Below are positions 496 to 31,059 of a stretch of 31,948 nucleotides of DNA, piece after piece; the first letter of the stretch is position 1; every line of letters starts with the position of its first letter. The notes beneath the pieces are model-generated. The model was not told the DNA's origin. It ran no database searches and saw nothing but the letters and a program-made list of their open reading frames with translations. The translations under genes and the position numbers were made by a program. The stretch covers positions 1 to 31,948 of the IMG/VR virus record IMGVR_UViG_3300048102_000188. One strand, written 5' to 3'. Origin of the DNA: a virus.

Positions 496-3400
496 ATGCC
501 ATTAACACGTTTAGATAACCTTATTAGTTCCAAGACTGGTAAGTATCTTTATGTTTCGCCAGACGATTTTAACGCAACGGATGCGTTATCTAACCGAGGC
601 AATTCACCAGTAACACCTTTTAAGAGTATTCAGAGAGCATTCTTAGAGATTGCTAGATATTCTTATCTACCTGGTTTCCAGAACGATAGGTTCGACCAGT
701 TCAGCATTATGCTGATGCCTGGTATTCACTATATTGATAACCGTCCTGGTCTTGTTGACACCAGCGGTATTGATGTATTTGGATTTGATCAAGCTACTAA
801 TGCTTGGACTGATGATAGCATCCTAGACATCTCTAACCCAGATAACGTCTTCTATAAATTTAACAACACTGAGGGTGGTGCAATCATCCCTAGAGGTTCT
901 TCACTCGTAGGTTATGACCTAAGAAGAACTGTTGTTCGTCCAATGTACGTTCCCGACCCTGCAACAACGGAACGTGAAATTCCTCGCTCTGCAATCTTTA
1001 ACGTAACTGGTGGTTGTTACTTCTGGCAGTTCACTATTAAGGATGGACAAACTACATCTGAATCTCCTCTCTACGATAACTCTGAAGGAAGTGGTTTAGT
1101 CTATTATGATCCTAAAGATTTCGCAAAAAAATCCGCACCAAATTTTTCTCACCATAAGCTAACTGTATTTGAATATGCTGATACAGAAGAGTTAAGTCTT
1201 TTCTATAGAAAAATTGCAAAAGGTTTCTCTGCATATCAACCTACAATTGATGATCCTGGTGAATTTGATTTCAGGGTTCAAGAGAACAGAATTGTTGGTC
1301 CTTTATCTGACTCTAGAGTTATTGAGTCTTTAACTCTTGCAGATGCTACAACTGATCCTAGTATTCCTGCATCCACTGCAGAAATTACAGTAACAACTAA
1401 AGTTGATCATGGATATTTTGCTGGTCAGTTTGTTGCTATTGCTAATACAGAAATTGATGATGTATTAGAAGGTATCTTCCAGATCAAAGAGATTGATCAG
1501 AATGATGCTCGTAAATTTAAGTATGAAGTTCCATTCGTTGTAAGTGGAATTGGTAGTAATATTGTATCTGGTCAGACAGTTAGTGTTGACACTACTCCTG
1601 CACTAGGACAGAATGCACAAACATTAGCAGAGGTTGACTCTGTTGAATCTGCATCACCATATGTCTTTAACGTATCGATTAGATCTACGTGGGGTATTTG
1701 TGGTATCTGGGCGAATGGTCTTAAGGCAACAGGCTTTAAGTCGATGGTTATCGCTCAGTACACGGGCGTATCGTTACAGAAGGATGACAGAGCATTCATT
1801 CGTTATGATGAATATACTAACACATGGAACCAAGCATCACTAGTAGATGCATTTGCTACTGTTCCTTATCACACCAAGGGTGATAGCTATTGGAAGGATG
1901 AGTGGAGAAACTTCCACGTTCGTGCTTCGGATGATGCTTTCATTCAGAACGTTTCTATCTTCGCTGTTGGTTTCGCTGATCACTTCCTCATGGAAAGTGG
2001 TGGTGACATGTCTATCACCAACTCGAACTCTAACTTTGGTAATACATCTCTACATGCTATTGGTTTTAAAGGTTTCGCCTTTAACCAAGATAAGGGTGGT
2101 TTCATTACTGACATCATTCCACCTGAAGCAGTTGTTGACAATACTGCCAGCACTAAAAAGATTTCATATTATACTATTGATATTCAGGGGACATTACAAA
2201 CTTCCTCAAATTATACCAAACTATTCCTTGGTAATGATGACATCGTAGATCCTCTGGTAAGACCAGCTGCGACTATCACTGGTTATAGACTTGGTGCTAA
2301 GTCTAATGATAGACTATATGTCAAGTTAGATAATGCTCCTGGCACAGATGAATTCTTTAATGTACAACTAGAACCAACTGGTTTTGTTAAGTATGTTGCT
2401 AAGGGTTCTATTCTTAATCCTTCTGGTGGTGTAGTTAATAGTGTCTATGCAGATGCTGCTAACCTAATTGAATCTAACCGCCGTATGATTCAGGAGGAAG
2501 TCTTTGGATATATCCTAGAGAAGTATCCTAGACTCCAGAATATTCCTTATGTTAATCCTGGTCTAAATCCTGCAGGTAACAGATACTTTGATGCTCGTAA
2601 TTTAATTGCTGCTAACCGTCAAGAGATTGTTGATACAGCATTCGATGATATGATCACAACCTATGGATCTAGTGTGATCCAAGGTATTGGTGATGGTAAG
2701 TGTAAGAGAGATATTGGTCTGATTGTTGATGCTGTTGCAGAAGATCTTAAGGACGGTGGTAACTCTAACGTTATTGCTGCAACCAGAACTTACTTTGATG
2801 GTGATGGCAATCCACTAACTAATGGTTTAGTTGGTGAGGAAGACTATGCAACCTATGCATTCCGTAGAGCTCGTGATTTATGTAAACTTGCTATTGCTAA
2901 CCTACTAACTGTACAGGCAGATCTATATGATCCTGATCCTAACAGTAATCTTGCTCCTTATGGTATCAATGTCGGTAAGACAGGTTCTCAGGCAGAACTA
3001 GATGGTGATACAACTAACGGTGTAACGATTGACCTTGCACTTAAGGCAGATCCTGCATCCCGTTATAAGGACGCACGTAACAGAATTGTCGCCAATAGAG
3101 AGTTCATCCTAGATGCAGCACTTGCTGAGGTAAGTGTATATCATCCTGACTTCTACATTCCTGGCGACACACAAACCAATTCACAGTCTAGACTTGCTGA
3201 TGGATTTAGAATGATCCGTCGTAACTCTTCTGAGATTAGAGATAAGGCACTTGCAGCTATTGCTGTTGCTCATCCTAACTTCTATATTGATGGTGATAAT
3301 CAGACTGATGAAGGATCTAGATATGCATCTGCATATCGTTTGATTGCAAACAATAGAAACCAGATTATTGATGTTGCATTGGCAGAAACAACTGTACAAC

Positions 3401-6400
3401 ATCCAGACTATTACTTTGTTGGTGATCAACAGACTGATGCACGTTCAAGATATGCTGATGGTTATCGTTTAATCCAGCAAAACAAAACTGAGATTGTCAA
3501 CACTGCATGGACAAATACACTAGGACAGTATGCAGGCGCTGCAGCTACTGAAGTTAAGTGTAAGCGTGACATGGGAATCTTCGTTGATTCTGTATCTCTT
3601 GACCTCTTCGTTGGTGGTAACAAGTACGCACGTAAGTTTATTCAAGAATACTTCAATGCTGCTGGTAATGCTTGGATCTCTGGTGGTCTACAGGGTGAAG
3701 AGACTGAAAGTATCTACGCATTCAACCAAGCAAGAGATTTAATGAAATCTGCTGTAGCTAACCAGTTGAGTGTTCAGGATCTTAGTGTTACACCAGGTCC
3801 TGCACAATATGCTGGTGGTGGTGGAGATATTGCTAACACTAACGCTGGTGCATGTGATGATGTACAATCTGCAATCACAACTCTAGTTGATATTGTTACG
3901 ACACAGATTGCTGCTGGTAATCTCAATGCTTTACCTACCGAGACAGCATACATCGCAGGTCCTGGCGAAGAGAAATGCCGTAGAGATATTGGTATCTTTG
4001 TTGATAGTATCGCACTTGACTTGTTCTGTAAGGGTAATGTTTACACTCACAGATTTGGAGCAGAGTTCTTTACAGATGCTTCAACTCCTGAGTTCTCATT
4101 CAACTCAGCGGTATACAATACCAACTTCAATAAAGCTGCTGAGACGATCAAGAAAGCGATCACTAATCAACTTTACGAGAAAGATCTATTCAGAACAGCA
4201 GACAATGCACCTGGCTCAGCATATGGTCAGGTATCTAAGGATTACACACCACATGGTGCAACTTATGATGCAGCAACTGGTGATATGGTTCTCAGTATCG
4301 CTAACCATGGTTTAAGTAATGGCGATCGTGTTAAGATTGCAGATTCTGGAGTTGTATTTACATGCACTATGGATAGCAATGGTAGTAACCATGCATATCC
4401 ACGTAATACAGACCCTGCATCTGGTCAGTACCTTGAGATTACTGCATCTACAACAGATAGTATCACAGTTAATGTTGGTGCATCTCCTGCTGGACAGCAA
4501 TACGATCATACATTTGTAAGTGCTGTTGCTAATTGTGTAAACTTTGCTGGTAACACTGCTAATCAACTAATCGACGCTCAGACTGCTCTATGCTCTGACG
4601 TTCAATCTGCTGTTGACTCACTAACAAGTATTGTAACTACAATTCTTTCTAATGGCAACCTCAGCACCATGCCTATTGAGGTTAACTATGGTAGTGGTAG
4701 AGGTCCTGGCGAACTTAAGTGTGCTCGTGACATCGGTTACTTTATCGATGCTATCTCCGTTGATATGTTCTGTGAAGGTAATAAGCATACTAGAACATTC
4801 ACTGAGCAATACTTCACTAATGCTACTACACCTCTAAACAACGGTCTTGTTGGTGAAGAAGCAGAAAGTGTTACTGCTTTCAACACTGCTCTTAATGAAA
4901 TGAAGAGAGCAGTTACCAACCAACTATACTATAAAGATCTCACTGTCACTGAGGGTGAAAGTCAATGGGGAGATGGCAATGGCACTGTTGCTAGAAATTC
5001 TTCTACTGCATGTGCTGATGTTCAGAATGCTATCACTACACTAGGAACTATTGCTACTGATGCAATCACTGCTGGTAATATTACTGGTGGTATCTGGAAC
5101 TCTGCTGCTAACGCTGGAACGTTCATTACTGGCGAAGCTAAGTGTCGTAGAGACCTTGGCATCGTTGTTGATGCTGTTGCACAGGATCTCTGGTTTGGTG
5201 GTAACGAGTTTACTATCGCTGCAACTAAGGAATACTTTAATAACAATGCATTAATTGCTAACGGTGTTGATGCTGAAGTTGCACCTTCTATCACTGCATT
5301 CAAGCGTGCTGAAGATTTAATGCAGCGTGCATTAAACAACGTTTACTATGATCGTGACCTTAATATTACACTAGATCAGACGGGTGATCCACCAATTGTA
5401 GGTGACATCGAGTGTGATGCACATGACATGGTAACCTCTAACCTAGACTTCATTGCAGAAGAAGCATATCTTCGTATGATTGCTGCATATCCTGCTTACA
5501 CACCACAGGCAAACAATACTGCACAAGATTGTAAGGATGATGTTATTACTGTCCTTAAAGAAGTCATGTGGGACGTTAAGTTTGGTGGCAACTACAAGAC
5601 ATATGATGCTGCTAAGATCTATGTCACCAACTACGACTATCAAACTGGCACTAACATCTCTACTTTCCTTGATGCTGAGCGTGATGAAGCTGCTAAGGTA
5701 ATGCTTGAGGCGAAGAACATCGCCATGCAGGTTATCAAGAATGAAACCGTAACTGTTGATGCTGCTAACACCAAGACTCAGGTCATTGATAATACTATCG
5801 TAGAAGACTGGGATGCAACTGAACTACTACCTAAGTGTGGTTCTGCTGTAGCTGCTGTTGATACTTTGTTTGGTATCGTTATTCAAGCGATTGGTAATGA
5901 TGGTGGCGTAGGTAATCTTGATGGTGTAGTTAGAACTACTCTTGATGGTCCTGATCCTGCATGGAACAAGGCACTCAATGTTATCAGCACCACTGCTACT
6001 TCCGTTACACTTAACGTTGGTGCATCTGCATCTGGTGATCAATATCCACATACATTTATCGCCGCAGCTGCTGGTGCTTTAGTATCTGGTGGTGCTTATG
6101 CTCATACATTTGTAAGTGCATCTGCTGACGCTGTTAACGTGGTTAACGGTAGTCCATTAACACCAATTAATGCAACATATGATGCTGCAACTGGTGATCT
6201 AACTCTATACTTTGGAACTGCACACGGTGTAACTACTAGTGATCAACTATCTCTGGATAATAACTCACTCACATTCTCTTGTGATATGGGTAGAGATTCG
6301 ACAACTAAGACTTATCCTCGTGCTGGATCTGATCCTGTTGCTGGTCAAAATGTTAACCCAACTGCTGTAACTGCAACCTCTATTACAATTAATGTTGGTG

Positions 6401-9400
6401 CATCTCCTCTAGTTGAGCATAACGTATCTAACGCAGTATATGATTCTGCAACTGGTTCTATTGCTCTTACGATTGGTGCTCACACACTAACCTCTGGTAC
6501 TAGCGTCAAACTTAAGGAAGAATCTTTAATCTTCAAGTGTACTAAGGATCAGAATGTTATGACACATTCCTATCCTAGAGCATCTGGTAAGTACAGACCT
6601 GCTGCATATGCAGATGGCAACTGTTCTGATGTTCTTGCAACTGTTAACGCACTGATTGACATCACATGTAACTCTCTTAACGATGGTAACCTCAACAACT
6701 TACCACCTCTAAACAATGGTGAGTGGGATTGTGCAAACGTTCGTAGTTCTATCGAAGTTCTCTTTGATATTCTACAGGATGCAATCGTTGGTGGTACACT
6801 TGCTGGTCTACCTCCTCTTAACACTGGAGACTTCACAATCAATAACGAAGCATCTAAGTGCTTCCGTGATGTTACTTACATCGTTGATGCTGTTGTTAAT
6901 GACTTACGACTTGGTGGTAACCTCAACAGTATCCAAGCTGGTGAAGCATACTATGTTGGTAACAACCTAGAGTACATCGACGGTGAGAAGACTGAAACTC
7001 TAGATGCATGGAACTATGTCGGACAGATGGCAACTGCTGCCATGAGAAACTTCGATGTTCTTGCATTCAACTGTTCTACAACTACTGGTTCTGCAATCGT
7101 TGACGTTAACGATACTCGTGGCATCATTATTGGTATGGGTGTCAAGGAATACGATGACACTGATCCAACTGCACCAGCATATGTCAATGGATTGCTACAA
7201 AGTGGAGCAACTCAACTAGTATCTAATATCCCTGCTGGTACATATGTCAAGAACATTGTAAGTAATACACAAATTGAACTTGGTGTTAATGGTTCTAGAC
7301 TAACTGAAGGTAACACAGTCAACGCCTTACAGACTAGCACTACAACTGAACTATACTTTGTATATGAAAATGGTATTTGGGCAGATACATTACCCACAAC
7401 TAAGATTGTCGGTCCTGCAGGAACTGGTGAAGAGGTCATTCAAGACACCACAGTTTCTCCAACAAATAGAGAGTGTTCTGGTACTGCTAATGCTATTGAA
7501 ACGTTAGTTGGTAACATCACTACTATTATTAATAGTGGTCTTGGCACAGTTACTAGACAAGAGCAGACAGTTAACACTGCACTTCTTGCATCTAGAGCTA
7601 CAGTATTTACGATTGACGTTTCTGGTAGTGGTCCTTCTAACCCACATGACTTTGAAACTGGTACAGCAGTTAGATTGGTTCCACGTCCACGTTTCGATCA
7701 AGTAACTGGTAAGTATGTTGATGTTGATAAGCGTCTTGTTAGACTACCTAATGGTTTTGATACTAACAGAACATACTATGTCATTGCACCAGGTAGAGTA
7801 ACACAACCAGAGAACTACGGTGGTACATCATTCTTCGATGGTAGTGATCAAACTAGATTGATGCTTGCAACCTCTAGAGAGAACGCAGCATCTGGTATTT
7901 ACATCTATGCATCTGAAACAGATAGCATCGATAAGGATGTTGAGATTGATCTTTATCAGTTTGTTCTTGACGACAAGTATGATCTACACAATTATACTGG
8001 TGTATTAAGCACATCAGTTAACGCTGGTATTCAAACAGATGTATCTCACATCTTTGATGTTCCTAATGCTGGTACTACACCTCAGAAAGCATTCATCAGA
8101 GCTGTTGAAGGTGGTGTTCTACCTCTAATCTCACAGACCTATGTTAATGATCCTCAAGTTGCGGTAACTGATCCGCAGAACTCTGCTATCGGTAGAATCA
8201 ATCCTAACATTGAGTTCTTCACTCGTTATCAGAATAATAAGACACTTACATTACACAAGACACATGCTGATGCAATTAACAATGTAAATCCAATTACATT
8301 TGCAGCTGGTCAATCTGGTCTTGAGTTCAATGTTTATGCTAACAAGAGTCGTTCGCCAATGCGATTCGATCCTGGTTTCACTGATGCTACTGCAACCAAT
8401 GGTAAGTGGTACATCCAGTGTAAGGACGAGGTAACTGGTAGTGGTGATCCTACAGATAATATCTTCTGGAGAATTTCTCAATCTGATTACGCTGATAGAC
8501 AGAGATCCACTGACATGTGGTATGAGCGTCTAGAAGATAATCGTGATAAGGATGATAGAACATACAAACTACGTATGGTCATTCCTAAGTATCTTGAGAA
8601 TGCAAGAGATCCTATTAATGGATTTGTTCTTAAGACAAGAACTGATGACACACGTAAGTTAGTACCTCAGAAGGTTGTATTGAAACCAGTTGTTGGTACA
8701 GTATATGGTGCTCGTTTTGAAAACCCAGTACAAGCTGGTGAATATATTGGATATGATTCTGCTGATTTCAATACTAATAGTCTTAATTTAGATGCACAGT
8801 ATGATCCATTTAAAAAGGATCAAACAGGTGCAGGTATTGAGTATAGAGCATTTGCAAGATTCACATCTGGTATTCAGGCAACTATCCAATCTGGTCGTTA
8901 TGTAGAAGACGTTTTAGATCCTTCTATCAAGTATCTTGAGTTGAATCTATATGATCATGCTGTTGATACTAGAAACTTCCCTGGCTTGAGGAACGAGACA
9001 TTTACTACAGTTAAGATTACTGCTCCTCAAGGTGGTAACTTTGTAACTAGTAAGGTTGATAACCAAGCATCATCTCCTAACGCTATTAGTTTTGCTGGTA
9101 ATTCTTCTGGTTTAGCTAACGTTCATGCATATTATACAGTAAATGGTGAACATTACTTAATCATCAAGAACGTTCGTAGTGGTGATTTAGAGTATAGTGA
9201 ATATGCCAATACAAGATTCACTCAAGGCACTGTCTTTGCTGACATGCTTGAGGATCAGGACATGGGCAAATCGCTTCCTCTAAAAACTCAAATCAGAAAA
9301 AATAATCCCCAGTTTTTCTACAAGCAAAACGGCGCTAACGTTTACACTATCACACCTGGCGACAGAATTCAAGATGACGCTGGTGTTGAGTACTATGTTG

Positions 9401-12400
9401 ATAGCGTTGAAGATGCAGGAGTTATCGAAGATACATTCTATATCTTCGGATATGAAACTCTACAAAAGAGAATTTCTGGACAGCAAGATGGTATCTACTA
9501 TCTAACTGCCCTCCGTGGTAACGTTTCACCATTCCCAACTGGTGCTGGTGTAACTAACAACTTCAAGAAGTTTAAGTTCTCTCAACCAGTCAGTAAGCTA
9601 TATCCTCTTAACTATAGAAACGATCCTCTTTGGTTTAAGAAGTCTGGTACTTCACAAGAAGAAAAAGATCTATATGCTGCATTAATTGACCCACCACAGG
9701 TATACTCTGCTGCTGACAACTATGTACATGGTCTTGTCACAGTTAACGACTTTAAGAACTCTACAACCAGAGAGATGGTTGCAGACCTTACAGAACAACC
9801 TGCATTCTTGCTTAACACCTATACTGGTGGCAATACAATTCAAGCACAAAGTGGTAATGCAACTTCTGGTTCTGAAGATCGTAGGATTCCGATTTCTGGT
9901 GATAGCACAGTTCTCTCTGATCAGAGATATTATGTTGAACTTAGACGACCATCTATCGCTCGTGCTGGTAACCATACGTTTGAATATCTTGGTTTCGGTC
10001 CAGGCAACTACTCCACTGGTCTACCAGCTAGGCAGGAAGTCGTCCTAACACCTGAAGAGGACTTCTACGCACAAAGTAAGAAACAAGACGCTGGTATTGT
10101 CTTCTACACTGGTATTAACTCACAGGGTGATTTGTACATTGGTAACAGAAGAATCAATGCTATTACTGGTGAAGAGACATTCATCGATTCTGCTGCATTA
10201 GTAGATGATGGAGACGAGGATGATACATTAGGCGGTCTAGTTACTACCTTCGATACTCCTGTAACATTCAACCAGAATATTACAGTTGTTGGTGGTGATG
10301 GTGAACTAGTTAATACATTTGAATCACCAATTACTATCGCTGTTCAAGATTCTGATCTAACACAGTCAAGAGATGCATTAATCATTCGTTCTAACGTATC
10401 TTCTATTGATCCTGTAACACAACTAGAACAAGATGAGCAATTAGATAGAACTGCATTTGCTCCTCCTACTGATGGTGACATCAGACTTGGTAAAAACAGA
10501 ATTCAATCCGCTATTTTTGGATTTAATTCCAGAGGAAATGGTCAAGAATATAAGATTCAAACACATACTACAGGCGGTGTAGCTTCTAACGTTACTCCTA
10601 ATCAGTCTCCACTGATCGCTAATGGTGGATCTAGAATTGATGTATCTCAGTTTATCACTTATGGTGGTGTAATCGCCGCACCTGGCGATATGCTACTCAA
10701 GGGAGCTGAAGTTGGTAAAAACGGATCTATCGCATGGATTCTTTCTAACTACTTCTCTAATATTTCTAATAATCAGATTGATAACATCGAGTTTGATGGA
10801 ACCAATGTTGTTAAACTCTCATTCAGAGACTTTACCAGTGGTGTTGCACTCTCAGTTGGTAATGATATTGGCATCACATCTGGTTCTCAGATTAGAATTA
10901 AGAACTTCTACTATGATCCTAGACTAAACCTAACATGGCAGGTATACGCTGCTAAACCTGGTGATGCATTTAACCCAACAAATAACTACTGTCATTTCCA
11001 AGTTATTGATCAAATTCCACAAGATACACAAGCTTGGGAAAACATTATTGCTGGTACAGCTACTGGACAACCTAGTCCTACTATTGAATTCTCTAACTCT
11101 AACTTCAAGGAATTTGGAGTCATTGGTGCTGAAGCACTTAGAACAGAGACTGAGAGCATTGGTGAGTATAAGTTAGGCATCAACACTGTTGCTCGTGCTC
11201 CACATAGTGCATATGCAAATGCATGGGTAAATCCAACAACGACTGATCCTCGTGCAAACCTTGATGTTGTTGGTAACGCATTCATCAGTGGTAGAGTTAC
11301 AGGTGATTTCTTAGATCACACTAACTTCGCTGATCGTGATAAGACTGCAATCGACAATGCACTATTAATTGGTGGTGATAGTTCTGCTCCTAACGATGAG
11401 GCAGTCCTACGTGTTGCGACTACAAACGGTGGTCGTGTTGGTATTAATGTTGATAACTCTCAACTAGATAGAGCTCTGGTTGTAGATGGCACATCTAGAT
11501 TCACTGATGATGCTCGTTTTGAGCATGACATTGAAGTCAATGGTGATGATGGTGTAATTGCCGAGATCAGAACATCACAGACAACAGGTACATTTAACTT
11601 AGTTGATGATACCACATTTACTGGAACACTCAACATTGGTAGTCAGGTTGGCACATTCAACCTAGTCAATGATACTACTGATGATCAGTTTATCTACGTT
11701 GGTACTTCATCAACACACAGTAATATCTTCATCGGAACTACTTCTGATACACCTAGTTCTAATATTTCTAAGGTTGAAATTGGTGGTGGATATAACAATA
11801 ACGAGTCTCTATCCTTTACTAGAATCAAAACCAAGTCCTTTAAGGTTGATGGTGACTTCCAGCTAGGTGCGAGAAGAACAATTAATGATACTGTAAACCT
11901 AACCACTAGTGCAGGTAAAGTTTCATTCTTCTCTAACTCTGGTTCTGCTTCTATTCTTGATTTCGCACTTAATGCATCTGAAATCAACATTGCTGGTCAG
12001 GGTGGTCTAACCACAATTAACAACCAGTTGAGAGTTGTTGCTTCTGCACAGTTTGATGGAAACATCCTAATGTGTGGTGGTGTTGCGGCATTCTCCTTCT
12101 TAGGTGACAGGGCACAACTTGGATCCACTGCATTCGCTCATGCTGATGGTATTCTAAGTGATACATTATTCAATAAGAACATTGACATTCTTAATGTCTT
12201 AGTTCTACAGACAACTGATGAAGGTTACAACCAAGTTGATACTGCTGGTGCTGGTCTCTGGGGTGGTGCTGCTTATCAACAGGAAGTTACAAACATTGGT
12301 GGAGCACCAGCTGTTGAACCACAGACATTGGGTGTTCTAACTGGTGATGAATACTGGTTACCACTCAAGTTTGCACCTGTTAAGCAAAATGGTGATCCAT

Positions 12401-14802
12401 ACTTTGTTGAGAATGATTATATTATTATCAACAGTGCAGTTTCTGGTAGCGGACATCCTGAGATCGTTCAGGTTCTAGAATTAACTAGAACATCTGTTGC
12501 TCCTTACTACCTCAAGGTTAAGCGTCAACCACTTGGTACTTACACTGCAATTCTAAACAATCATATTGATACTACACCTATTTTCAAGGTTAACGTACAG
12601 TTTGATGCCACATGGACTGAGCAGGCACTAGATTCTACTGGTCCTCAAGACAATGTATATCTTTCTGAGTTTGGTGGTGTTCTAACAAATAATGATTATG
12701 TAATCATTGACCGTGAAGATACAAACAGCGATGGCATCTTTAATCAAGGTGAAGTTATCAAGGTTGTTACTCCTCTAGAGGCAGTAGAACAGAAATTCAG
12801 AATTTCTAAAGATTGTTCTCAAGGTGAAGCTGGCGATGTGTTCATTGTCAACTCTGTAACAGGTGACACTACTATCCTTGGCGATACTACTATCAATAAC
12901 ACTCTGACAATTAAGGGTGGTTGTGGAACACTATCCAATGTTCAGTTTAATGGAACTGCAACTGCTGGAACTAATATTATTACTGGTGTAACTGTTACGA
13001 GTCCTGATAAGACAATTGCTGATATCAAGATTGGTGATACCATTGTTAATATTACTAACGAGTCTCCAATTAACTTCTCGCCAGATGCAGTCATTACAGC
13101 AATTGATTCAGTCAATGGTGAGTTAGTTCTAAGCAGAAACACACTTGGTTCTTCTTCCCAGACTGTAGGATTAGCAGCTAGGAGAAATGAGCAATTCTTG
13201 ATCACAGATGGTAATCAAGTACCAACATTCAGGGTAGATTCTTGTAGTGGAACTACACATATTGGTAATCAATATGGTAGATTCGATATTGAATACTCCA
13301 GTGCTGGAGAGACTACTTCTAATACTGCTGGTATTCCTGCACTATTTGATGCTGGAACTATCAAGAGAGCATATAGTTTCTGGTTCGATCCACAGCATGT
13401 ATCTGATGGTGGTCCTACTACTACAATCGCTAGTGCTGTTGCTGGTAGCGCAAGTCAAATCCAGATTCCTGTTCAATCTCTTGGTGTTGGTTCTGGTGCG
13501 TTTGCTGTTGATGATTTAGTATTTGTTGGATCACCAACTGCAACAACTACTCAAATTGGTGATTATATTATTGGTAAGATTACACAAATTATTACCAACC
13601 CTGCTAACTTAACTATTGTTGTTGAAGATGCTGGTACTGGTTTAAATACCAACAAGACATTTACTCCATCTGATAGTGCATTTGATGCTGGTAATACTGT
13701 TAGAAGACTAATCAAGCATAAGGAACTTGCTAATATCATCGATGTTGAGCAGAGAACTAGAGTTAACTCTGGTGCTTCTACCACATATATCTCGATGATC
13801 CTTGATAAGGGATATATCTCTCAGCAAAAACTTGATTACGCTCAATTCTTAGCTCTTGCAGATGACGAAGGTGATGCTAAGATTTGGGTCAAGGTTGTTG
13901 GAAGACTGAAAGGTGATGTTCATCAAGTAACGATGAACGAACAAATTCAAGATGGTGCAATTGGATATAGAAGTGGTAACACTCTCATCAATGGCAACTT
14001 GGATATGGCTGGTGGAAGCTTCCAGATCTTCGATTCTGTTAATCAGACAAGACTGTTTGCTTTAGTTAATGATGATGGTCACGCTGATCACCAAGGTCTA
14101 CTAACTTGGGATGCTGGTGTTACTGCAAGAGGTGACTTCTATCTCTTCAGCGCACAAGATCCAGAGAACGTTGTTTTAAATCCAGATGCTAATGTTCCAT
14201 CATTCTCTGTTGATAACCTGGCTAATGTAACTGCTGGTAGGTCGTTTACTGTTAATGGTCTGGCATCTAATCCACCTTCTACAACATTCAAGCAATTTGC
14301 TTTAGAAAATCTTGGTGTAGATGGCACAGAAGAGTATGCAATTAAGCAAGATAGTTCTATCGATGCATTTGGTATTACTAACTTCACTACTTCTAGTGGT
14401 GCTAGACATACAAGATATATTTCTTCTGCATCTCCAGAAGAGGATCTAACATTAGTACCAAATATTACTTATATGGTAAATACTACTGCTTCAACTACAT
14501 TAGTTCTTACATTACCATCTGGTCCTCAATCAGGAGATATTGTGAGAATCACAGATGTTGGTGGTAACTTAAGCTATAATACATCATTGGTACTAAGAAC
14601 AGCAGAATCTTCTGGAACTAAGATTCAGGGAGATGATACTGGAACACTGTTGGGTGGAAGAATTACACCATATCCTTCTGGAGAACTGGTAGTTCAAACT
14701 CCTAATGCTGCGTTTGCTCTTGTATATCTTGGTTCTGTTGATAGTAATGGACAAGTTGGTATTCCAACTTCAGTACAAGGATGGTGGTTAACCGAGGTAT
14801 AA
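496..14802 (+). CDS. Giant repeat-built virion structural protein (fibre/baseplate type)
   Basis: A 4768-aa protein in one uninterrupted frame. Residues 1 to about 600 start with a GKYLYVSPDDF...PFKSIQRAF stretch that resembles the entry to a right-handed beta-helix (pectate-lyase-like) fold. Residues about 650-2300 are built from repeats: helical ANRxxI units, seven KCxRDIGxxVDAVxxDLxxGGN units (starting near residues 735, 1021, 1160, 1408, 1549, 1678 and 2121), interleaved CxDVQSAIxTLxxI units, and three YDAATGD...YPR...ITVNVGAS beta modules (near 1257, 1895 and 1982). The rest is beta-rich fibre sequence, with a GTFNLVDDTT repeat near 3700 and a terminal TRYISSA...LVLTLPSG domain (about 4637-4720) of the kind seen at cyanophage fibre C-termini. 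It has its own late promoter and is followed 3 bp later by collar-domain genes, so a host-contacting fibre or baseplate component is likely. The exact structural role is inferred. Confidence 0.85.
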   Translation: MPLTRLDNLISSKTGKYLYVSPDDFNATDALSNRGNSPVTPFKSIQRAFLEIARYSYLPGFQNDRFDQFSIMLMPGIHYIDNRPGLVDTSGIDVFGFDQATNAWTDDSILDISNPDNVFYKFNNTEGGAIIPRGSSLVGYDLRRTVVRPMYVPDPATTEREIPRSAIFNVTGGCYFWQFTIKDGQTTSESPLYDNSEGSGLVYYDPKDFAKKSAPNFSHHKLTVFEYADTEELSLFYRKIAKGFSAYQPTIDDPGEFDFRVQENRIVGPLSDSRVIESLTLADATTDPSIPASTAEITVTTKVDHGYFAGQFVAIANTEIDDVLEGIFQIKEIDQNDARKFKYEVPFVVSGIGSNIVSGQTVSVDTTPALGQNAQTLAEVDSVESASPYVFNVSIRSTWGICGIWANGLKATGFKSMVIAQYTGVSLQKDDRAFIRYDEYTNTWNQASLVDAFATVPYHTKGDSYWKDEWRNFHVRASDDAFIQNVSIFAVGFADHFLMESGGDMSITNSNSNFGNTSLHAIGFKGFAFNQDKGGFITDIIPPEAVVDNTASTKKISYYTIDIQGTLQTSSNYTKLFLGNDDIVDPLVRPAATITGYRLGAKSNDRLYVKLDNAPGTDEFFNVQLEPTGFVKYVAKGSILNPSGGVVNSVYADAANLIESNRRMIQEEVFGYILEKYPRLQNIPYVNPGLNPAGNRYFDARNLIAANRQEIVDTAFDDMITTYGSSVIQGIGDGKCKRDIGLIVDAVAEDLKDGGNSNVIAATRTYFDGDGNPLTNGLVGEEDYATYAFRRARDLCKLAIANLLTVQADLYDPDPNSNLAPYGINVGKTGSQAELDGDTTNGVTIDLALKADPASRYKDARNRIVANREFILDAALAEVSVYHPDFYIPGDTQTNSQSRLADGFRMIRRNSSEIRDKALAAIAVAHPNFYIDGDNQTDEGSRYASAYRLIANNRNQIIDVALAETTVQHPDYYFVGDQQTDARSRYADGYRLIQQNKTEIVNTAWTNTLGQYAGAAATEVKCKRDMGIFVDSVSLDLFVGGNKYARKFIQEYFNAAGNAWISGGLQGEETESIYAFNQARDLMKSAVANQLSVQDLSVTPGPAQYAGGGGDIANTNAGACDDVQSAITTLVDIVTTQIAAGNLNALPTETAYIAGPGEEKCRRDIGIFVDSIALDLFCKGNVYTHRFGAEFFTDASTPEFSFNSAVYNTNFNKAAETIKKAITNQLYEKDLFRTADNAPGSAYGQVSKDYTPHGATYDAATGDMVLSIANHGLSNGDRVKIADSGVVFTCTMDSNGSNHAYPRNTDPASGQYLEITASTTDSITVNVGASPAGQQYDHTFVSAVANCVNFAGNTANQLIDAQTALCSDVQSAVDSLTSIVTTILSNGNLSTMPIEVNYGSGRGPGELKCARDIGYFIDAISVDMFCEGNKHTRTFTEQYFTNATTPLNNGLVGEEAESVTAFNTALNEMKRAVTNQLYYKDLTVTEGESQWGDGNGTVARNSSTACADVQNAITTLGTIATDAITAGNITGGIWNSAANAGTFITGEAKCRRDLGIVVDAVAQDLWFGGNEFTIAATKEYFNNNALIANGVDAEVAPSITAFKRAEDLMQRALNNVYYDRDLNITLDQTGDPPIVGDIECDAHDMVTSNLDFIAEEAYLRMIAAYPAYTPQANNTAQDCKDDVITVLKEVMWDVKFGGNYKTYDAAKIYVTNYDYQTGTNISTFLDAERDEAAKVMLEAKNIAMQVIKNETVTVDAANTKTQVIDNTIVEDWDATELLPKCGSAVAAVDTLFGIVIQAIGNDGGVGNLDGVVRTTLDGPDPAWNKALNVISTTATSVTLNVGASASGDQYPHTFIAAAAGALVSGGAYAHTFVSASADAVNVVNGSPLTPINATYDAATGDLTLYFGTAHGVTTSDQLSLDNNSLTFSCDMGRDSTTKTYPRAGSDPVAGQNVNPTAVTATSITINVGASPLVEHNVSNAVYDSATGSIALTIGAHTLTSGTSVKLKEESLIFKCTKDQNVMTHSYPRASGKYRPAAYADGNCSDVLATVNALIDITCNSLNDGNLNNLPPLNNGEWDCANVRSSIEVLFDILQDAIVGGTLAGLPPLNTGDFTINNEASKCFRDVTYIVDAVVNDLRLGGNLNSIQAGEAYYVGNNLEYIDGEKTETLDAWNYVGQMATAAMRNFDVLAFNCSTTTGSAIVDVNDTRGIIIGMGVKEYDDTDPTAPAYVNGLLQSGATQLVSNIPAGTYVKNIVSNTQIELGVNGSRLTEGNTVNALQTSTTTELYFVYENGIWADTLPTTKIVGPAGTGEEVIQDTTVSPTNRECSGTANAIETLVGNITTIINSGLGTVTRQEQTVNTALLASRATVFTIDVSGSGPSNPHDFETGTAVRLVPRPRFDQVTGKYVDVDKRLVRLPNGFDTNRTYYVIAPGRVTQPENYGGTSFFDGSDQTRLMLATSRENAASGIYIYASETDSIDKDVEIDLYQFVLDDKYDLHNYTGVLSTSVNAGIQTDVSHIFDVPNAGTTPQKAFIRAVEGGVLPLISQTYVNDPQVAVTDPQNSAIGRINPNIEFFTRYQNNKTLTLHKTHADAINNVNPITFAAGQSGLEFNVYANKSRSPMRFDPGFTDATATNGKWYIQCKDEVTGSGDPTDNIFWRISQSDYADRQRSTDMWYERLEDNRDKDDRTYKLRMVIPKYLENARDPINGFVLKTRTDDTRKLVPQKVVLKPVVGTVYGARFENPVQAGEYIGYDSADFNTNSLNLDAQYDPFKKDQTGAGIEYRAFARFTSGIQATIQSGRYVEDVLDPSIKYLELNLYDHAVDTRNFPGLRNETFTTVKITAPQGGNFVTSKVDNQASSPNAISFAGNSSGLANVHAYYTVNGEHYLIIKNVRSGDLEYSEYANTRFTQGTVFADMLEDQDMGKSLPLKTQIRKNNPQFFYKQNGANVYTITPGDRIQDDAGVEYYVDSVEDAGVIEDTFYIFGYETLQKRISGQQDGIYYLTALRGNVSPFPTGAGVTNNFKKFKFSQPVSKLYPLNYRNDPLWFKKSGTSQEEKDLYAALIDPPQVYSAADNYVHGLVTVNDFKNSTTREMVADLTEQPAFLLNTYTGGNTIQAQSGNATSGSEDRRIPISGDSTVLSDQRYYVELRRPSIARAGNHTFEYLGFGPGNYSTGLPARQEVVLTPEEDFYAQSKKQDAGIVFYTGINSQGDLYIGNRRINAITGEETFIDSAALVDDGDEDDTLGGLVTTFDTPVTFNQNITVVGGDGELVNTFESPITIAVQDSDLTQSRDALIIRSNVSSIDPVTQLEQDEQLDRTAFAPPTDGDIRLGKNRIQSAIFGFNSRGNGQEYKIQTHTTGGVASNVTPNQSPLIANGGSRIDVSQFITYGGVIAAPGDMLLKGAEVGKNGSIAWILSNYFSNISNNQIDNIEFDGTNVVKLSFRDFTSGVALSVGNDIGITSGSQIRIKNFYYDPRLNLTWQVYAAKPGDAFNPTNNYCHFQVIDQIPQDTQAWENIIAGTATGQPSPTIEFSNSNFKEFGVIGAEALRTETESIGEYKLGINTVARAPHSAYANAWVNPTTTDPRANLDVVGNAFISGRVTGDFLDHTNFADRDKTAIDNALLIGGDSSAPNDEAVLRVATTNGGRVGINVDNSQLDRALVVDGTSRFTDDARFEHDIEVNGDDGVIAEIRTSQTTGTFNLVDDTTFTGTLNIGSQVGTFNLVNDTTDDQFIYVGTSSTHSNIFIGTTSDTPSSNISKVEIGGGYNNNESLSFTRIKTKSFKVDGDFQLGARRTINDTVNLTTSAGKVSFFSNSGSASILDFALNASEINIAGQGGLTTINNQLRVVASAQFDGNILMCGGVAAFSFLGDRAQLGSTAFAHADGILSDTLFNKNIDILNVLVLQTTDEGYNQVDTAGAGLWGGAAYQQEVTNIGGAPAVEPQTLGVLTGDEYWLPLKFAPVKQNGDPYFVENDYIIINSAVSGSGHPEIVQVLELTRTSVAPYYLKVKRQPLGTYTAILNNHIDTTPIFKVNVQFDATWTEQALDSTGPQDNVYLSEFGGVLTNNDYVIIDREDTNSDGIFNQGEVIKVVTPLEAVEQKFRISKDCSQGEAGDVFIVNSVTGDTTILGDTTINNTLTIKGGCGTLSNVQFNGTATAGTNIITGVTVTSPDKTIADIKIGDTIVNITNESPINFSPDAVITAIDSVNGELVLSRNTLGSSSQTVGLAARRNEQFLITDGNQVPTFRVDSCSGTTHIGNQYGRFDIEYSSAGETTSNTAGIPALFDAGTIKRAYSFWFDPQHVSDGGPTTTIASAVAGSASQIQIPVQSLGVGSGAFAVDDLVFVGSPTATTTQIGDYIIGKITQIITNPANLTIVVEDAGTGLNTNKTFTPSDSAFDAGNTVRRLIKHKELANIIDVEQRTRVNSGASTTYISMILDKGYISQQKLDYAQFLALADDEGDAKIWVKVVGRLKGDVHQVTMNEQIQDGAIGYRSGNTLINGNLDMAGGSFQIFDSVNQTRLFALVNDDGHADHQGLLTWDAGVTARGDFYLFSAQDPENVVLNPDANVPSFSVDNLANVTAGRSFTVNGLASNPPSTTFKQFALENLGVDGTEEYAIKQDSSIDAFGITNFTTSSGARHTRYISSASPEEDLTLVPNITYMVNTTASTTLVLTLPSGPQSGDIVRITDVGGNLSYNTSLVLRTAESSGTKIQGDDTGTLLGGRITPYPSGELVVQTPNAAFALVYLGSVDSNGQVGIPTSVQGWWLTEV
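2458..3520 (+). repeat. Protein repeat array, ANRxxI type, in the giant protein
   Basis: At least six copies of a helical unit of the form (R/K)YxDAxxLIxANRxxIxDxA. They begin with ADAANLIESNRRMI (about residue 652), then DARNLIAANRQEI, DARNRIVANREFI, ADGFRMIRRNSSEI, ASAYRLIANNRNQI and ADGYRLIQQNKTEI. The last copies are separated by a conserved linker of the form HPxFYIxGDxQT(D/N)xxSR. The regular spacing suggests internal duplication. Boundaries are approximate. Confidence 0.75.
2698..6920 (+). repeat. Protein repeat array, CxRDIGxxVDAVxxDLxxGGN type
   Basis: Seven copies of the motif occur at nucleotides 2698, 3556, 3973, 4717, 5140, 5527 and 6856. Each is followed by an aromatic (Y/F)(F/Y) stretch and a helix of the form AFxxAxDLMKxAxxNQL. 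Between copies lie CxDVQSAIxTLxxIVTxxIxxGNL units. The copies have diverged in both DNA and protein sequence, so the amplification is old. The paired Cys in each unit could be structural or metal-binding; the sequence alone cannot say which. Confidence 0.8.
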
Positions 14803-27043: not shown

Positions 27044-27157
27044 ATGAAGACATTGATACTTGATTATATCAATCAGAGTAACAATGGTAACCATGCTCAA
27101 GCAGAAGTCATCTTACACAAAATTAATATGATGAGGAAGCTAACTGATGACAGTTAA
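27044..27157 (+). CDS. Unlisted 37-aa protein
   Basis: A short frame in the gap before the oxygenase gene: begins MKTLILDYINQSNNGNHAQA and continues with a helical VILHKINMMRKL segment. It overlaps the oxygenase start by 11 bp, consistent with coupling, and its N-terminus is a plausible amphipathic helix. Could be a leader peptide for the oxygenase gene. Confidence 0.45.
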   Translation: MKTLILDYINQSNNGNHAQAEVILHKINMMRKLTDDS

Positions 27158-27728
27158 TTGTATTTCAGCGTTTCCTTCTCCTATTTTACAATTTAGTTTG
27201 TCCGACTTTGCTGACCATCGTCAGCAGATCGTGGATAACATTTACTCTGTGATGGAAACAACCGAGTCTGTCAGTCTATCAAATGAAGGTGGATGGCAGT
27301 CTCCAAATCAAGAACCACAACCAAAGGTGCTGTTTAAGAGTGTCAACGATATCATGACACAATTCCTTACGGAAGAACTACAGTACAGTATTGGTAATGT
27401 GTGGTATAATGTGAACACTGAAGGATCCTTTAATCATAAGCATACTCATCCAGGATGTGATCTTGCTGCTGTATTCTATGTCAAGGTTCCTGAAGGTGAT
27501 TGTGGTAGACTTGAGATCGAGAATCCAAGTTACTTCAATCAGTTCAGACTACTAGATGCGATGAATCCAAAGTTGAAAGAGGACATGATTACATTTACTT
27601 CGATGTGGTTTCCACCAGTAGAAGGTAATGGTCTGATCTTCCCATCTAATCTAATTCATCGTGTATCAAAGAACAACACTCAAGAAGACAGGATTAGTAT
27701 TTCATGGAACATTCACATCAACTACTGA
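27147..27728 (+). CDS. 2OG-Fe(II) oxygenase-family protein 1
   Basis: 193 aa with the core of the putative 2-oxoglutarate/Fe(II) oxygenase family (TIGR02466-like): WYNVNTEGSFNHKHTHPGCD (residues 86-105), then AAVFYVKVP, a distal PSNLIHRV (H171) and RISISWNIH (R182). Candidate iron ligands are His in HKHTH (97-101), D105 and H171, with R182 binding 2-oxoglutarate. Such enzymes hydroxylate proteins, nucleic-acid bases or small molecules, and cyanophages often carry several. The substrate cannot be read from sequence. A paralogue lies at 30487. It overlaps a 37-aa gene at its start and the exported protein's gene at its end (25 bp). Confidence 0.75.
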   Translation: MTVNCISAFPSPILQFSLSDFADHRQQIVDNIYSVMETTESVSLSNEGGWQSPNQEPQPKVLFKSVNDIMTQFLTEELQYSIGNVWYNVNTEGSFNHKHTHPGCDLAAVFYVKVPEGDCGRLEIENPSYFNQFRLLDAMNPKLKEDMITFTSMWFPPVEGNGLIFPSNLIHRVSKNNTQEDRISISWNIHINY

Positions 27729-28393
27729 AGCAAGTAGTGGCAGCAGGGTTATGTTTAGGATTGTCAGGTGTAGCATTAGCTAACGAAGACAAGATCACAC
27801 AAGGTTTTAAATCATACGACGCCATGGGTTGTATGTTATTGCGTGAGTGTAAGGAGGATGTTGATGAAGTCTTCACTCTATTAGATATCTCACATGAGTA
27901 TCCTAATACGGAAGCATACACACCATACTCACAAGAATTCAACACGATGTTGATGACACTGAATCAAATCGGTGTCAAGGTATATCTTGCTGATGCAAAG
28001 TATTTCCCTGATGGTCATCGTGGTGTCTATCACACAGTCAGTAATAACTTTTACTTGAATCGTGATTGGATGGGTGATCCTGGTACACTGATGATGTTAA
28101 TGCGCCATGAAGGATGGCACGCCGCCCAAGATTGTATGGCAGGCACAATTGATAATAGTATGATTGCTATTATTATGCCTGAAGATGCAGTACCGATGCT
28201 ATGGCGTGTGTTAGCAGAGCGTACATATCCTGAGAACGCAGTACCATGGGAAGCAGAAGCACAATGGGCGGGTCGAACTGAACATATGACTATGAAAGCA
28301 CTTCAAGCTTGTGCAAAGGGAGAAATGTGGACAGTTTATGAACCGACACCTATGACTCGTGAATGGTTGGAGATCAATGGATATATCAAATAA
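27704..28393 (+). CDS. Exported HEGWH metallopeptidase-like protein
   Basis: 229 aa. It opens with a signal peptide: K9, a hydrophobic core of residues 11-25 (VVAAGLCLGLSGVAL), and a probable AxA-type cleavage after A26. The mature part contains MRHEGWHAAQDC, a zinc-peptidase HExxH motif (H135, E136, H139), with WEAEA downstream (E183 or E185) as a candidate third zinc ligand, as in gluzincin-type enzymes. Four mature-region cysteines (C43, C49, C143, C203) suit an exported, disulphide-bonded protein. The gene starts inside the oxygenase gene, with AGGA 10 bp before the ATG. The role could be envelope modification, release or superinfection exclusion; the substrate is unknown. The domain outside the motif is not recognised, so peptidase activity is inferred. 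Confidence 0.7.
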   Translation: MEHSHQLLKQVVAAGLCLGLSGVALANEDKITQGFKSYDAMGCMLLRECKEDVDEVFTLLDISHEYPNTEAYTPYSQEFNTMLMTLNQIGVKVYLADAKYFPDGHRGVYHTVSNNFYLNRDWMGDPGTLMMLMRHEGWHAAQDCMAGTIDNSMIAIIMPEDAVPMLWRVLAERTYPENAVPWEAEAQWAGRTEHMTMKALQACAKGEMWTVYEPTPMTREWLEINGYIK

Positions 28394-28652
28394 ACAAAAA
28401 CTCATTGTACTTACTCACAAATATGGTTCAGAAAACGACCTCTACATCGAAATCCCGCAAACCATCCGCGAAGACCTCGACTGGAAAGAAGGTGACACGC
28501 TCATCTGGGAAATCAAAGGCGACAACAGTATCGTCATTAGAAAAGAACTTAGCGTCTCTGAATACAAAGAGCAAGCAATCAAAGAACACCTCGAAGACCA
28601 AGACTTCGACTCGTACTACGACTGGATCTACCAAATCTGCTTCGAGTCGTAA
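28377..28652 (+). CDS. AbrB/SpoVT-like DNA-binding protein
   Basis: 91 aa from ATG 28377, with GGAG 4 bp upstream; an ATG at 28359 is less likely. Residues 21-56 (DLYIEIPQTIREDLDWKEGD, then TLIWEIKGDNSIVIRK) match the swapped-hairpin AbrB fold found in transition-state regulators and antitoxins. The C-terminus is an acidic helix ending SYYDWIYQICFES. Residues 1-19 use T-ending codons like the neighbours. From residue 20 onward, by my count, 39 of 44 pyrimidine-ending codons end in C. The switch coincides with the start of a second frame at 28423, suggesting dual-coding constraint. It overlaps the peptidase-like gene by 17 bp. Targets are unknown: it may regulate phage or host promoters. Confidence 0.7.
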   Translation: MDISNKQKLIVLTHKYGSENDLYIEIPQTIREDLDWKEGDTLIWEIKGDNSIVIRKELSVSEYKEQAIKEHLEDQDFDSYYDWIYQICFES

Positions 28653-28905
28653 GAGCAAAGATCGTGGTGTGAAGCATACACGTTGTAAGGACAAGAGTTT
28701 GTTCCCACATTATTCAATGCCATGGCGTATGGAGCCACGTACAGGTAAATTTAACCTGAGTTGGTATATGTGTTTTGATCATGCAGTAGATCAGATTGAA
28801 CGTTCACACTTACAACCAAAGGATTATAAACTGCAATGTTATACGTCCGTCCCTATCACTGATCCATTAACTGGTTCAGTCCGAACTCAACGCTATGTTA
28901 CCTAA
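28423..28905 (+). CDS. Basic Lys/Ser/Thr-tailed protein, overlaps the AbrB-like gene
   Basis: 160 aa from ATG 28423. Residues 1-79 are low-complexity and strongly basic (17 Lys and 4 Arg by my count, a single Glu, the rest mostly Ser and Thr), like a histone-type disordered tail that would bind nucleic acid. Residues 80-160, beyond the AbrB-like gene, look like a folded domain (GKFNLSWYMCFDHAVDQIER) with normal codon use. The first 230 bp are shared with the AbrB-like gene in another frame. No ribosome site precedes 28423. A GTG at 28670 would give a short version without the tail. The downstream domain is certainly coding; whether the tail is translated is the open question. Confidence 0.55.
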   Translation: MVQKTTSTSKSRKPSAKTSTGKKVTRSSGKSKATTVSSLEKNLASLNTKSKQSKNTSKTKTSTRTTTGSTKSASSRKSKDRGVKHTRCKDKSLFPHYSMPWRMEPRTGKFNLSWYMCFDHAVDQIERSHLQPKDYKLQCYTSVPITDPLTGSVRTQRYVT

Positions 28906-29360: not shown

Positions 29361-29440
29361 ATAACTATGCACTTGAAATCGTATTCTGGGTTGTACTCGG
29401 ATGCTATTTTGTATACCTATGGGAGGAACGTCACTCATGA
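29357..29440 (+). CDS. 27-aa single-pass membrane peptide
   Basis: A 27-codon gene between two ATGA overlaps. Residues 5-22 (ALEIVFWVVLGCYFVYLW) form one uninterrupted hydrophobic helix followed by a charged EERH tail, so it should insert into the host inner or thylakoid membrane. Its last codons contain the GGGAGG ribosome site for pyrE, so its translation may also control pyrE. Similar micro-membrane proteins in phages act as holin-like or inhibitor peptides; no specific role can be claimed. Confidence 0.5.
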   Translation: MNNYALEIVFWVVLGCYFVYLWEERHS

Positions 29441-30015
29441 AAATTAGAACTCAGTTCACAACACCTGAAGATACAAAACATAAAACTACGCTCCTGAATC
29501 TTCTGAAGGAACGAGCATACCGTAAAGGACAGTATACTCTCTCATCTGGTAAACAGTCAGAGCATTATGTCAATTGTAAACCTGTCACACTCTCATGTGA
29601 AGGTAATGCTCTCTTGTCTCATCTCCTACTACCACTCATTGATCATAATGCCGTAGCTGTTGGTGGTCTCACATTAGGTGCTGATCCTCTTGTCATTGGT
29701 ATCTCTCAAAAGTCTTATTACAAAGGTAATAGACATATTGATGCTCTAATCGTCAGAAAGAACCCTAAGGACTATGGTACACAAGAAGTCATTGAAGGTC
29801 ACAAACCACCTAAAGGATCAGTCATCACTGTATTGGAAGATGTTACCACAACAGGTGCATCTGCCTTAATCGCAGTGAATACACTCAGACAAGCAGGTTA
29901 CATTGTAAATAGAGTCGTAACTATCATTGATCGAATGGATGATCATAAGATATGGGATGATAATAACATTGAATTTAAATCATTGTATCATCTGAATGAC
30001 CTCATATCAGTTTAA
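29437..30015 (+). CDS. pyrE: Orotate phosphoribosyltransferase
   Basis: 192 aa, the normal size for OPRT, which joins orotate to PRPP to give orotidine monophosphate in pyrimidine synthesis. Visible motifs: TLSSGKQSEHYVNCK (residues 35-48), the OPRT N-terminal signature; RKNPKDYGTQEVIEG (107-121), the flexible catalytic loop; and VLEDVTTTGASA (132-143), the PRPP-binding loop with acidic E134 and D135. The start at 29437 is set by a strong GGGAGG site (29421-29426) and an ATGA overlap; an in-frame ATG at 29401 lies inside the membrane-peptide gene. The enzyme would raise UMP supply for phage DNA and RNA synthesis. Adjacent genes are not obviously nucleotide enzymes, so the metabolic link is to pyrE alone. 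Confidence 0.88.
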   Translation: MKIRTQFTTPEDTKHKTTLLNLLKERAYRKGQYTLSSGKQSEHYVNCKPVTLSCEGNALLSHLLLPLIDHNAVAVGGLTLGADPLVIGISQKSYYKGNRHIDALIVRKNPKDYGTQEVIEGHKPPKGSVITVLEDVTTTGASALIAVNTLRQAGYIVNRVVTIIDRMDDHKIWDDNNIEFKSLYHLNDLISV

Positions 30016-30281: not shown

Positions 30282-30487
30282 CTCCTACAATTAAACAATC
30301 AGATTGGTTTACTAATACATCAGATAAACCATACGATAGACACTTCTACATTGCTAACTATCCTGATGATAGGTCCTATGCATTTGAAGACTATGATCAT
30401 CTTAGAGCACATTGGTTTCAACAAGCAGATACACATGATGCTACTGTCACTGTCATGGACATACAACAATCTAAGGGATTCAAATAA
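30278..30487 (+). CDS. Unknown 69-aa aromatic-rich protein
   Basis: Rich in Tyr, Asp, His and Trp (DRHFYIANYPDDRSYAFEDY, then LRAHWFQQADTHDATVTV). Probably a small alpha/beta fold. It starts at an ATGA overlap and its stop codon shares its last base with the oxygenase start (TAATG), so it may be translated together with oxygenase 2. Not recognised. Confidence 0.65.
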   Translation: MTPTIKQSDWFTNTSDKPYDRHFYIANYPDDRSYAFEDYDHLRAHWFQQADTHDATVTVMDIQQSKGFK

Positions 30488-31059
30488 TGTATAATATCAT
30501 CCCCCTATTCCCTACACTTGTCTATCATACTCACATCAACAATAACATTGATGCACTCATAGACTATTGTTATGAACATAAAAGAAAGGATGAAATAGGA
30601 TCAACATACGAACAACGATCAGGTGTTAACTCATACCAATCATTACATCTGAATACAACATTACTACAACCAGTAAGAGATAAGGTAGATGAAATACTAC
30701 GTGAGGTATACACTCAACCAACCTATCATAAATCCAATTGGATTAACATTAACCCAACAGGATCAAGAAACGTACAACATACACATCCTGGTGGAGACTA
30801 CTCAGCAGTATACTATCTGAAGAATACAGATAAGACTGGTATTGTGTTTATTAATCCAGTCGCTCATACCTCATATAACATTACCACATACACTAACCCT
30901 AAGCTAGTAGATGATACAAGAGCATCACCACAGTTTAGAATTGAACCAGCTCAAGGTGATCTATTATTGTTCCCATCATACTTACCACATTGGGTAGAAG
31001 AAAACAAGGGAACAGACGATAGAATTAGCATATCATGGAACATTAATGTGGTAATCTGA
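30487..31059 (+). CDS. 2OG-Fe(II) oxygenase-family protein 2
   Basis: 190 aa, the same family as the protein at 27147: IPLFPTLVYHTHI start, WININPTGSRNVQHTHPGGD (residues 85-104), SAVYYLKN, distal PSYLPHWVEEN (H168) and RISISWNIN (R179). Candidate metal ligands are His in HTH (98, 100), D104 and H168; R179 should bind 2-oxoglutarate. The two share the HTHPGxD and RISISWNI signatures but differ elsewhere, so they are old paralogues or separate acquisitions. It ends the pyrE chain. The substrate is not predictable. The insertion between the HTHP core and the distal His contains a TNPKLVDD segment matching MNPKLKED in paralogue 1. Confidence 0.77.
   Translation: MYNIIPLFPTLVYHTHINNNIDALIDYCYEHKRKDEIGSTYEQRSGVNSYQSLHLNTTLLQPVRDKVDEILREVYTQPTYHKSNWININPTGSRNVQHTHPGGDYSAVYYLKNTDKTGIVFINPVAHTSYNITTYTNPKLVDDTRASPQFRIEPAQGDLLLFPSYLPHWVEENKGTDDRISISWNINVVI

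Follow-up and report, generated by a model that had tools for sequence, protein, structure and literature searches.

Organisation of the locus

The window, i.e. the whole stretch of DNA analysed here, is the 31,948-base virus record IMGVR_UViG_3300048102_000188, and its relatives are Kyanoviridae cyanomyoviruses. It contains two overlapping coding sequences on the forward strand. The first one (28377..28652), referred to as the partner, encodes a protein of 91 aa with a net charge of -11, comprising an AbrB/MazE-like domain and an acidic C-terminal extension. The domain matches Pfam PF04014 (E 1.2e-8, 35.2 bits for a gathering score of 24.7) as well as phrog_661, and the AlphaFold2 model of the partner exhibits a beta-rich core followed by two helices. 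A Shine-Dalgarno-like GGAG (28369..28372) precedes the AbrB start with a spacing of 4. The second coding sequence (28423..28905) would encode a protein of 160 aa, comprising a basic tail and a C-terminal domain, of the family phrog_23641/phrog_1609; the matches of the window protein itself are modest (1.6e-4 and 7.8e-4, domain alone).

The original prediction described two forward frames open from the ATG at 28423 to the AbrB stop at 28652, and these coordinates were reproduced. The shared segment (28423..28652) appears to be dual-coding, as indicated by its C bias, by shuffling and by the suppression of silent changes in both frames. The basic frame is offset by +1, with position 3 of each AbrB codon being position 2 of the basic-frame codon. 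Its internal ATG (28423..28425) has no Shine-Dalgarno motif upstream. The GTG suggested as an alternative, domain-only start does exist, but at 28669 (28669..28671) and not at 28670, and it is not conserved among homologues.

With regard to the surroundings, an ORF just downstream (29401-30015) resembles, by eye, orotate phosphoribosyltransferase (PyrE), and the locus is flanked by two mutually similar ORFs (27147-27728 and 30487-31059) which look like 2OG-Fe(II) oxygenases, also by eye. A single open reading frame of 4768 aa, very large for a phage gene, is present at 496-14802.

Codon bias within the overlap

Among the pyrimidine-ending AbrB codons of the window, the C:T ratio shifts from 2:7 before the second ATG to 39:5 in the overlap, although the neighbouring genes favour T (329C:670T). 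The original prediction had reported both the switch at the second start and these counts, and both were reproduced exactly. The bias in the overlap is highly significant in a binomial test (p 2e-14) and in Fisher tests against the neighbouring genes (9e-14) and against the part of the same gene that precedes the overlap (1.5e-4). A T at the third position of a partner codon would fall on position 2 of the basic-frame codon and give a hydrophobic residue, which very probably explains the selection of C at the third positions of the partner.

Synonymous reshuffling of the AbrB frame with background codon usage gave 2.7 stops on average in the second frame, which was open in 2.8% of the shuffles. 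The openness of the 74-codon second frame in the window (P 0.028) is by itself only modest evidence. As a single open frame is only mildly unlikely, homologues were needed, and the case is carried by the codon bias together with these homologues.

Conservation of the overlap in cyanophages

Homologues were gathered by tblastn and by scans of viral contigs, and a domain profile was used to place the domain in every locus. The main set comprises 47 non-redundant loci with a partner in the same register, and 31 further informative loci were added later. The basic frame is open and basic in 47/47 and 31/31 of these loci, respectively. In the loci located with the domain profile, every stretch upstream of the domain that a partner overlaps has this frame open, with a basic product. 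Homologues that keep the C bias while carrying stops in the second frame, for which the original prediction had proposed a search, were found neither among the 47 loci nor among the 31 informative new ones. Likewise, among the complete loci from the domain-seeded scans, which are blind to the tail, none has an interrupted tail frame. As a control, the third forward frame is open in 1/47 loci and the antisense registers in 0, 3, and 19 of 47. An antisense ORF at 28428-28694 was rejected on this basis, the antisense registers not being conserved as open frames.

The partner is of the AbrB type in 25 of the 47 loci, of the GC751 type in 19, and of other types in three. GC751 (T4-GC751, phrog_1364) is acidic and unrelated in sequence to AbrB, with a consensus of roughly DGSFTIxWDENDPxESIxNDWTxEDF. 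The overlap extends over 63-139 codons in most loci. The second frame starts +25 to +46 nt from the AbrB start and mostly +7 to +22 nt from the GC751 start; scripted partner starts are unreliable for L038 and L040 (no ATG found) and for L049 and L050 (downstream Met taken), which leaves the overlap counts unaffected.

The internal ATG is always built from partner codons NAT GNN (47/47 loci), the encoded residues being variable (Y, H, N, D and G, A, D, E, V), and an in-frame stop is often found 1-5 codons upstream of it. A Shine-Dalgarno motif is missing at this ATG in nearly all loci, and ribosomes would have to initiate there without one. A domain-only start was rejected: GTG 28669 is not conserved, and 24 of the 47 loci exhibit no ATG, GTG or TTG between -8 and +12 codons from the domain start.

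The overlap recurs in many genera of marine cyanophages, and up to 265 phage records give a match to the domain. The 38 aligned members match phrog_23641 (38/38), phrog_1609 (37/38), and phrog_3790 (28/38), all of which are cyanophage proteins of unknown function. In most of the records examined, the partner is listed by itself or together with a fragment of the domain. In Sf-CH1b, the annotated CDS of 399 nt is the partner frame, and in S-MbCM6 a short, full basic protein is annotated.

Selection on both frames

The C bias of the window is found throughout the family. In the 47 loci, the pyrimidine-ending partner codons of the overlap are 1774C:386T (82% C), compared with 118:182 in the partner before the overlap and 3917:6926 in neighbouring genes, and the 31 further informative loci exhibit 79% C in the overlap. 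In 19 pairs of relatives, partner-silent C<->T changes affect 25/784 sites (~3%) in the overlap and 294/1383 (~21%) in upstream genes, i.e. an approximately 7-fold suppression (p 8e-36, although loci and pairs share branches and ancestry, so that p-values are overstated and serve as guides only). Where the partner core is overlapped, partner-silent changes (11/363, 3.0%) and basic-silent changes (6/199, 3.0%) are equally rare; in the C-terminal extension of the partner, the values are 13/298 (4.4%) and 10/163 (6.1%), respectively. In the same basic gene past the partner stop, third-position C<->T changes reach 104/498 (20.9%). The low rates of silent change in either frame indicate that each frame protects sites which the other would leave free. 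Comparison of the loci shows both frames to be open, conserved and, judging from these substitution patterns, under purifying selection.

Properties of the basic protein

In the window, the basic tail comprises about 80 aa, with a net charge of +19, 46% Ser/Thr and 26% Lys/Arg. AlphaFold2 models built with 32 homologues exhibit a folded C-terminal domain (residues 81-140, 28663..28842, single-coding) with a pLDDT of 82-90, while the tail mostly remains at 42-58. A helix is predicted, itself with low confidence, at residues 36-46 (28528..28560), at the position of a conserved TQxxLxKNLxxLT motif. The idea that a basic, disordered tail is overprinted and fused to an ordinary domain downstream finds strong support in the homologues and agrees with the contrast in model confidence between domain and tail.

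The description of the tail as histone-like holds as far as a basic, disordered tail of low complexity is concerned. However, no histone or Hc1/Hc2 profile was matched in Pfam by the 38 members, no Pfam histone was matched by the relatives with a C-terminal tail, and the basic protein family exhibits no Pfam match of any kind; a histone-like function would be deduced from composition. A Foldseek search of the PDB with the model of the C-terminal domain gave no significant match (best E 0.98), and the best VIA-align hit (Z 3.6, 4.5 A over 63 residues) is at an uninformative level. The BFVD matches are uncharacterised cyanophage proteins, and a sequence search of the PDB gave nothing convincing.

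From its composition, we infer that the tail binds nucleic acid, either DNA or RNA, in the infected cell. The tail, predicted to be disordered, may bind nucleic acid or an acidic surface, perhaps that of the partner (charges of +19 and -11 in the window). Electrostatic pairing of the basic protein with its acidic partner is possible.

Probable origin of the overlap and exchange of partners

Stand-alone GC751 genes, with no domain nearby, are found in S-CRM01, S-SRM01, and S-SZBM1. They encode only 53-54 aa and exhibit no C bias (C:T of 13:12, 8:18, and 10:19, respectively), which supports the view that the partner core predates the tail overprinted on it and that the acidic extension arose with the overlap. 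Conversely, in L051 and L044 the TQxxLxKNLxxLT motif is overlapped little or not at all, and in the shortest proteins (L049 and L050) it lies at the extreme start. As the motif can lie outside the overlap, it seems to be older than the partner extension overprinted on the helix region. Both genes have thus probably grown into each other by reciprocal overprinting, as far as the sequences indicate. Distant relatives (phrog_3790) exhibit the domain first, followed by a single-coding C-terminal basic tail (L074:868-1227 in S-T4, L073:862-1251 in S-SM2, and L072:895-1266 in ACG-2014f), which argues that the basic tail itself is a selected trait. To the eye, the S-T4 tail is histone-H1-like, e.g. 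AAKKTATKAKAPAKSTRRKK.

In the domain tree, which is based on 60 columns only, the partner types are interleaved, with at least eight changes among four labels; the starred branches force at least 2-3 changes for AbrB and GC751. In addition, L021 (AbrB) and L060 (GC751) have different cores but about 100 nt of near-identical overlap, a pattern suggestive of recombination within it. The original prediction of a tail overprinted on a regulator gene stands with regard to overprinting, but a regulator host is not required, since the partner can be AbrB or at least one other, unrelated protein. Moreover, the C-terminal extensions of the partners appear to be overprinted in their turn.

The acidic extensions in L021:2504-2826, L060:1695-2005, and other overlaps look as if built from recurring dual-coding pieces, combined differently across AbrB and GC751 partners. 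These pieces, given as partner = basic frame, include ISEATxEDWxDFW = KKTGxTSG, YYNSESEGK = TTAKAKAK, and FGQVFHSPEAQGSWG = KKPSVKSSTRQK. In L076 (Sf-FR1, 627-890) and in L120, the same basic protein overlaps yet another type of partner (MEDRIKQLEEEVKIWRDRYEAL...), whose C-terminal end in Sf-FR1 is the same YYNSESEGK piece.

Interpretation and alternative explanations

The locus is very probably a same-strand dual-coding pair, comprising an acidic partner and a separately started, basic-tailed protein with a small domain, linked by reciprocal overprinting, with translation of both deduced from the DNA. The first protein would start upstream and be AbrB/MazE-like in the window and the unrelated GC751 in many other cyanophages. 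Separate initiation at the internal ATG, offset by +1, would produce a disordered tail rich in Lys/Ser/Thr/Arg, a short helix motif, and the small C-terminal domain. For the N-terminal part of the tail, the partner core would be the old sequence and the tail the overprinted one; for the acidic C-terminal extension of the partner, the helix/linker region of the basic protein would be the older sequence, with the extension overprinted on it. The basic-tailed protein is probably nucleic-acid-binding, in view of its composition. We tentatively propose a broader scenario, which may well be wrong: the two genes would have grown into each other over about 60-140 codons, with the host gene exchanged several times for an unrelated one by recombination inside the overlap. 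Throughout, the second frame would have kept encoding a disordered tail of basic character and the first frame an acidic product, and the oppositely charged products may bind each other.

It is very unlikely that translation yields just the partner and the domain by itself, from GTG 28669 or a similar start, with the basic frame as a by-product of the C bias of the partner. Several records do list just a domain fragment, the internal ATG has no Shine-Dalgarno motif, and the hydropathy of the basic frame ceases to be exceptional once the C bias is taken into account (own-third-position mode of the shuffling). Nevertheless, the bias begins at the second ATG, is missing from stand-alone GC751, and lowers the chance of an open frame (median P 0.01 vs 0.05). 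Moreover, 24/47 loci exhibit no start codon near the domain, the partner-silent changes are down about 7-fold, and basic tails, like the helix motif, are also found outside the overlap. The presence of an ATG at the beginning of the tail in 47/47 loci, with an offset that differs between them (+7 to +46 in most) and often just downstream of an in-frame stop, leaves equally little room for programmed frameshifting from the partner, which would give an AbrB-tail-domain fusion instead of or besides the separate protein, even though a shift anywhere in the 63-139 codons of most overlaps would yield such a fusion and the second start lacks a Shine-Dalgarno motif.

An element acting as RNA or DNA, and not a second protein, could also underlie the C bias and the conservation, which would fit the few changes in both frames. 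This is extremely improbable, as the RNA fold z-score is 0.16, no Rfam match was obtained, and the pattern tracks the codon register over two unrelated partners and stops at the partner stop. A toxin-antitoxin-like pair, in which the acidic partner (MazE-like in the window) neutralises the basic protein, would fit the AbrB/MazE-like nature of the partner, the opposite charges (e.g. -11 and +19), and the upstream, overlapping position of the partner gene. Such a role is weakened, and in our opinion unlikely, because partners are exchanged, those of unrelated sequence being nearly as common. Moreover, the basic protein family has no Pfam toxin match, and some relatives have no overlapping partner.

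Natural controls are available for the dual-coding pair, in the form of partners and tails without overlap and of two partners that are unrelated to each other. Apart from those of small viruses, long same-strand overlaps for which selection has been shown in both frames are rare, and annotation pipelines discard such overlaps. The locus is thus a good test bed for the onset of overprinting, for two proteins sharing one sequence, and for internal starts without Shine-Dalgarno motifs, and it extends the cyanophage gene set by a basic protein that is mostly missing from annotations. In the literature covered, most subscription journals being outside its scope, no paper on overlapping cyanomyovirus genes or on this pair was found, nor any ribosome profiling or proteomics. 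S-CREM1 has an annotated MazE, and gene overlap is not discussed in the passages considered (PMC9964418).

Comparison with known systems

Within the known families, phrog_1609 (59 aa) is essentially the domain alone, the long overprinted N-terminal tail being mostly missing from records, and phrog_3790 exhibits a C-terminal basic tail without overlap, in contrast with the N-terminal overprinted tail described here. MazE antitoxins share the AbrB/SpoVT-like domain (PF04014) of the window partner and of about half of the loci, but here the partner bears an acidic extension that would be dual-coded with the basic protein, and no MazF-like gene is recognised in the overlapping frame. In Rz/Rz1, a phage gene is embedded in the +1 frame and has an internal start inside a same-strand gene. 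The present pair is similar in that a second protein would be made from an internal start in a same-strand gene. Unlike in Rz/Rz1, the second gene continues beyond the end of the host gene, where it has a domain of its own, the host can be replaced by an unrelated gene, and both genes extend into each other. De novo overprinted frames tend toward disordered and compositionally biased sequence (review PMC8227390), and the viral overprinting considered there mainly concerns small eukaryotic viruses, whereas the overlap presented here belongs to a lineage of dsDNA phages of 170-200 kb and is accompanied by partner switching.
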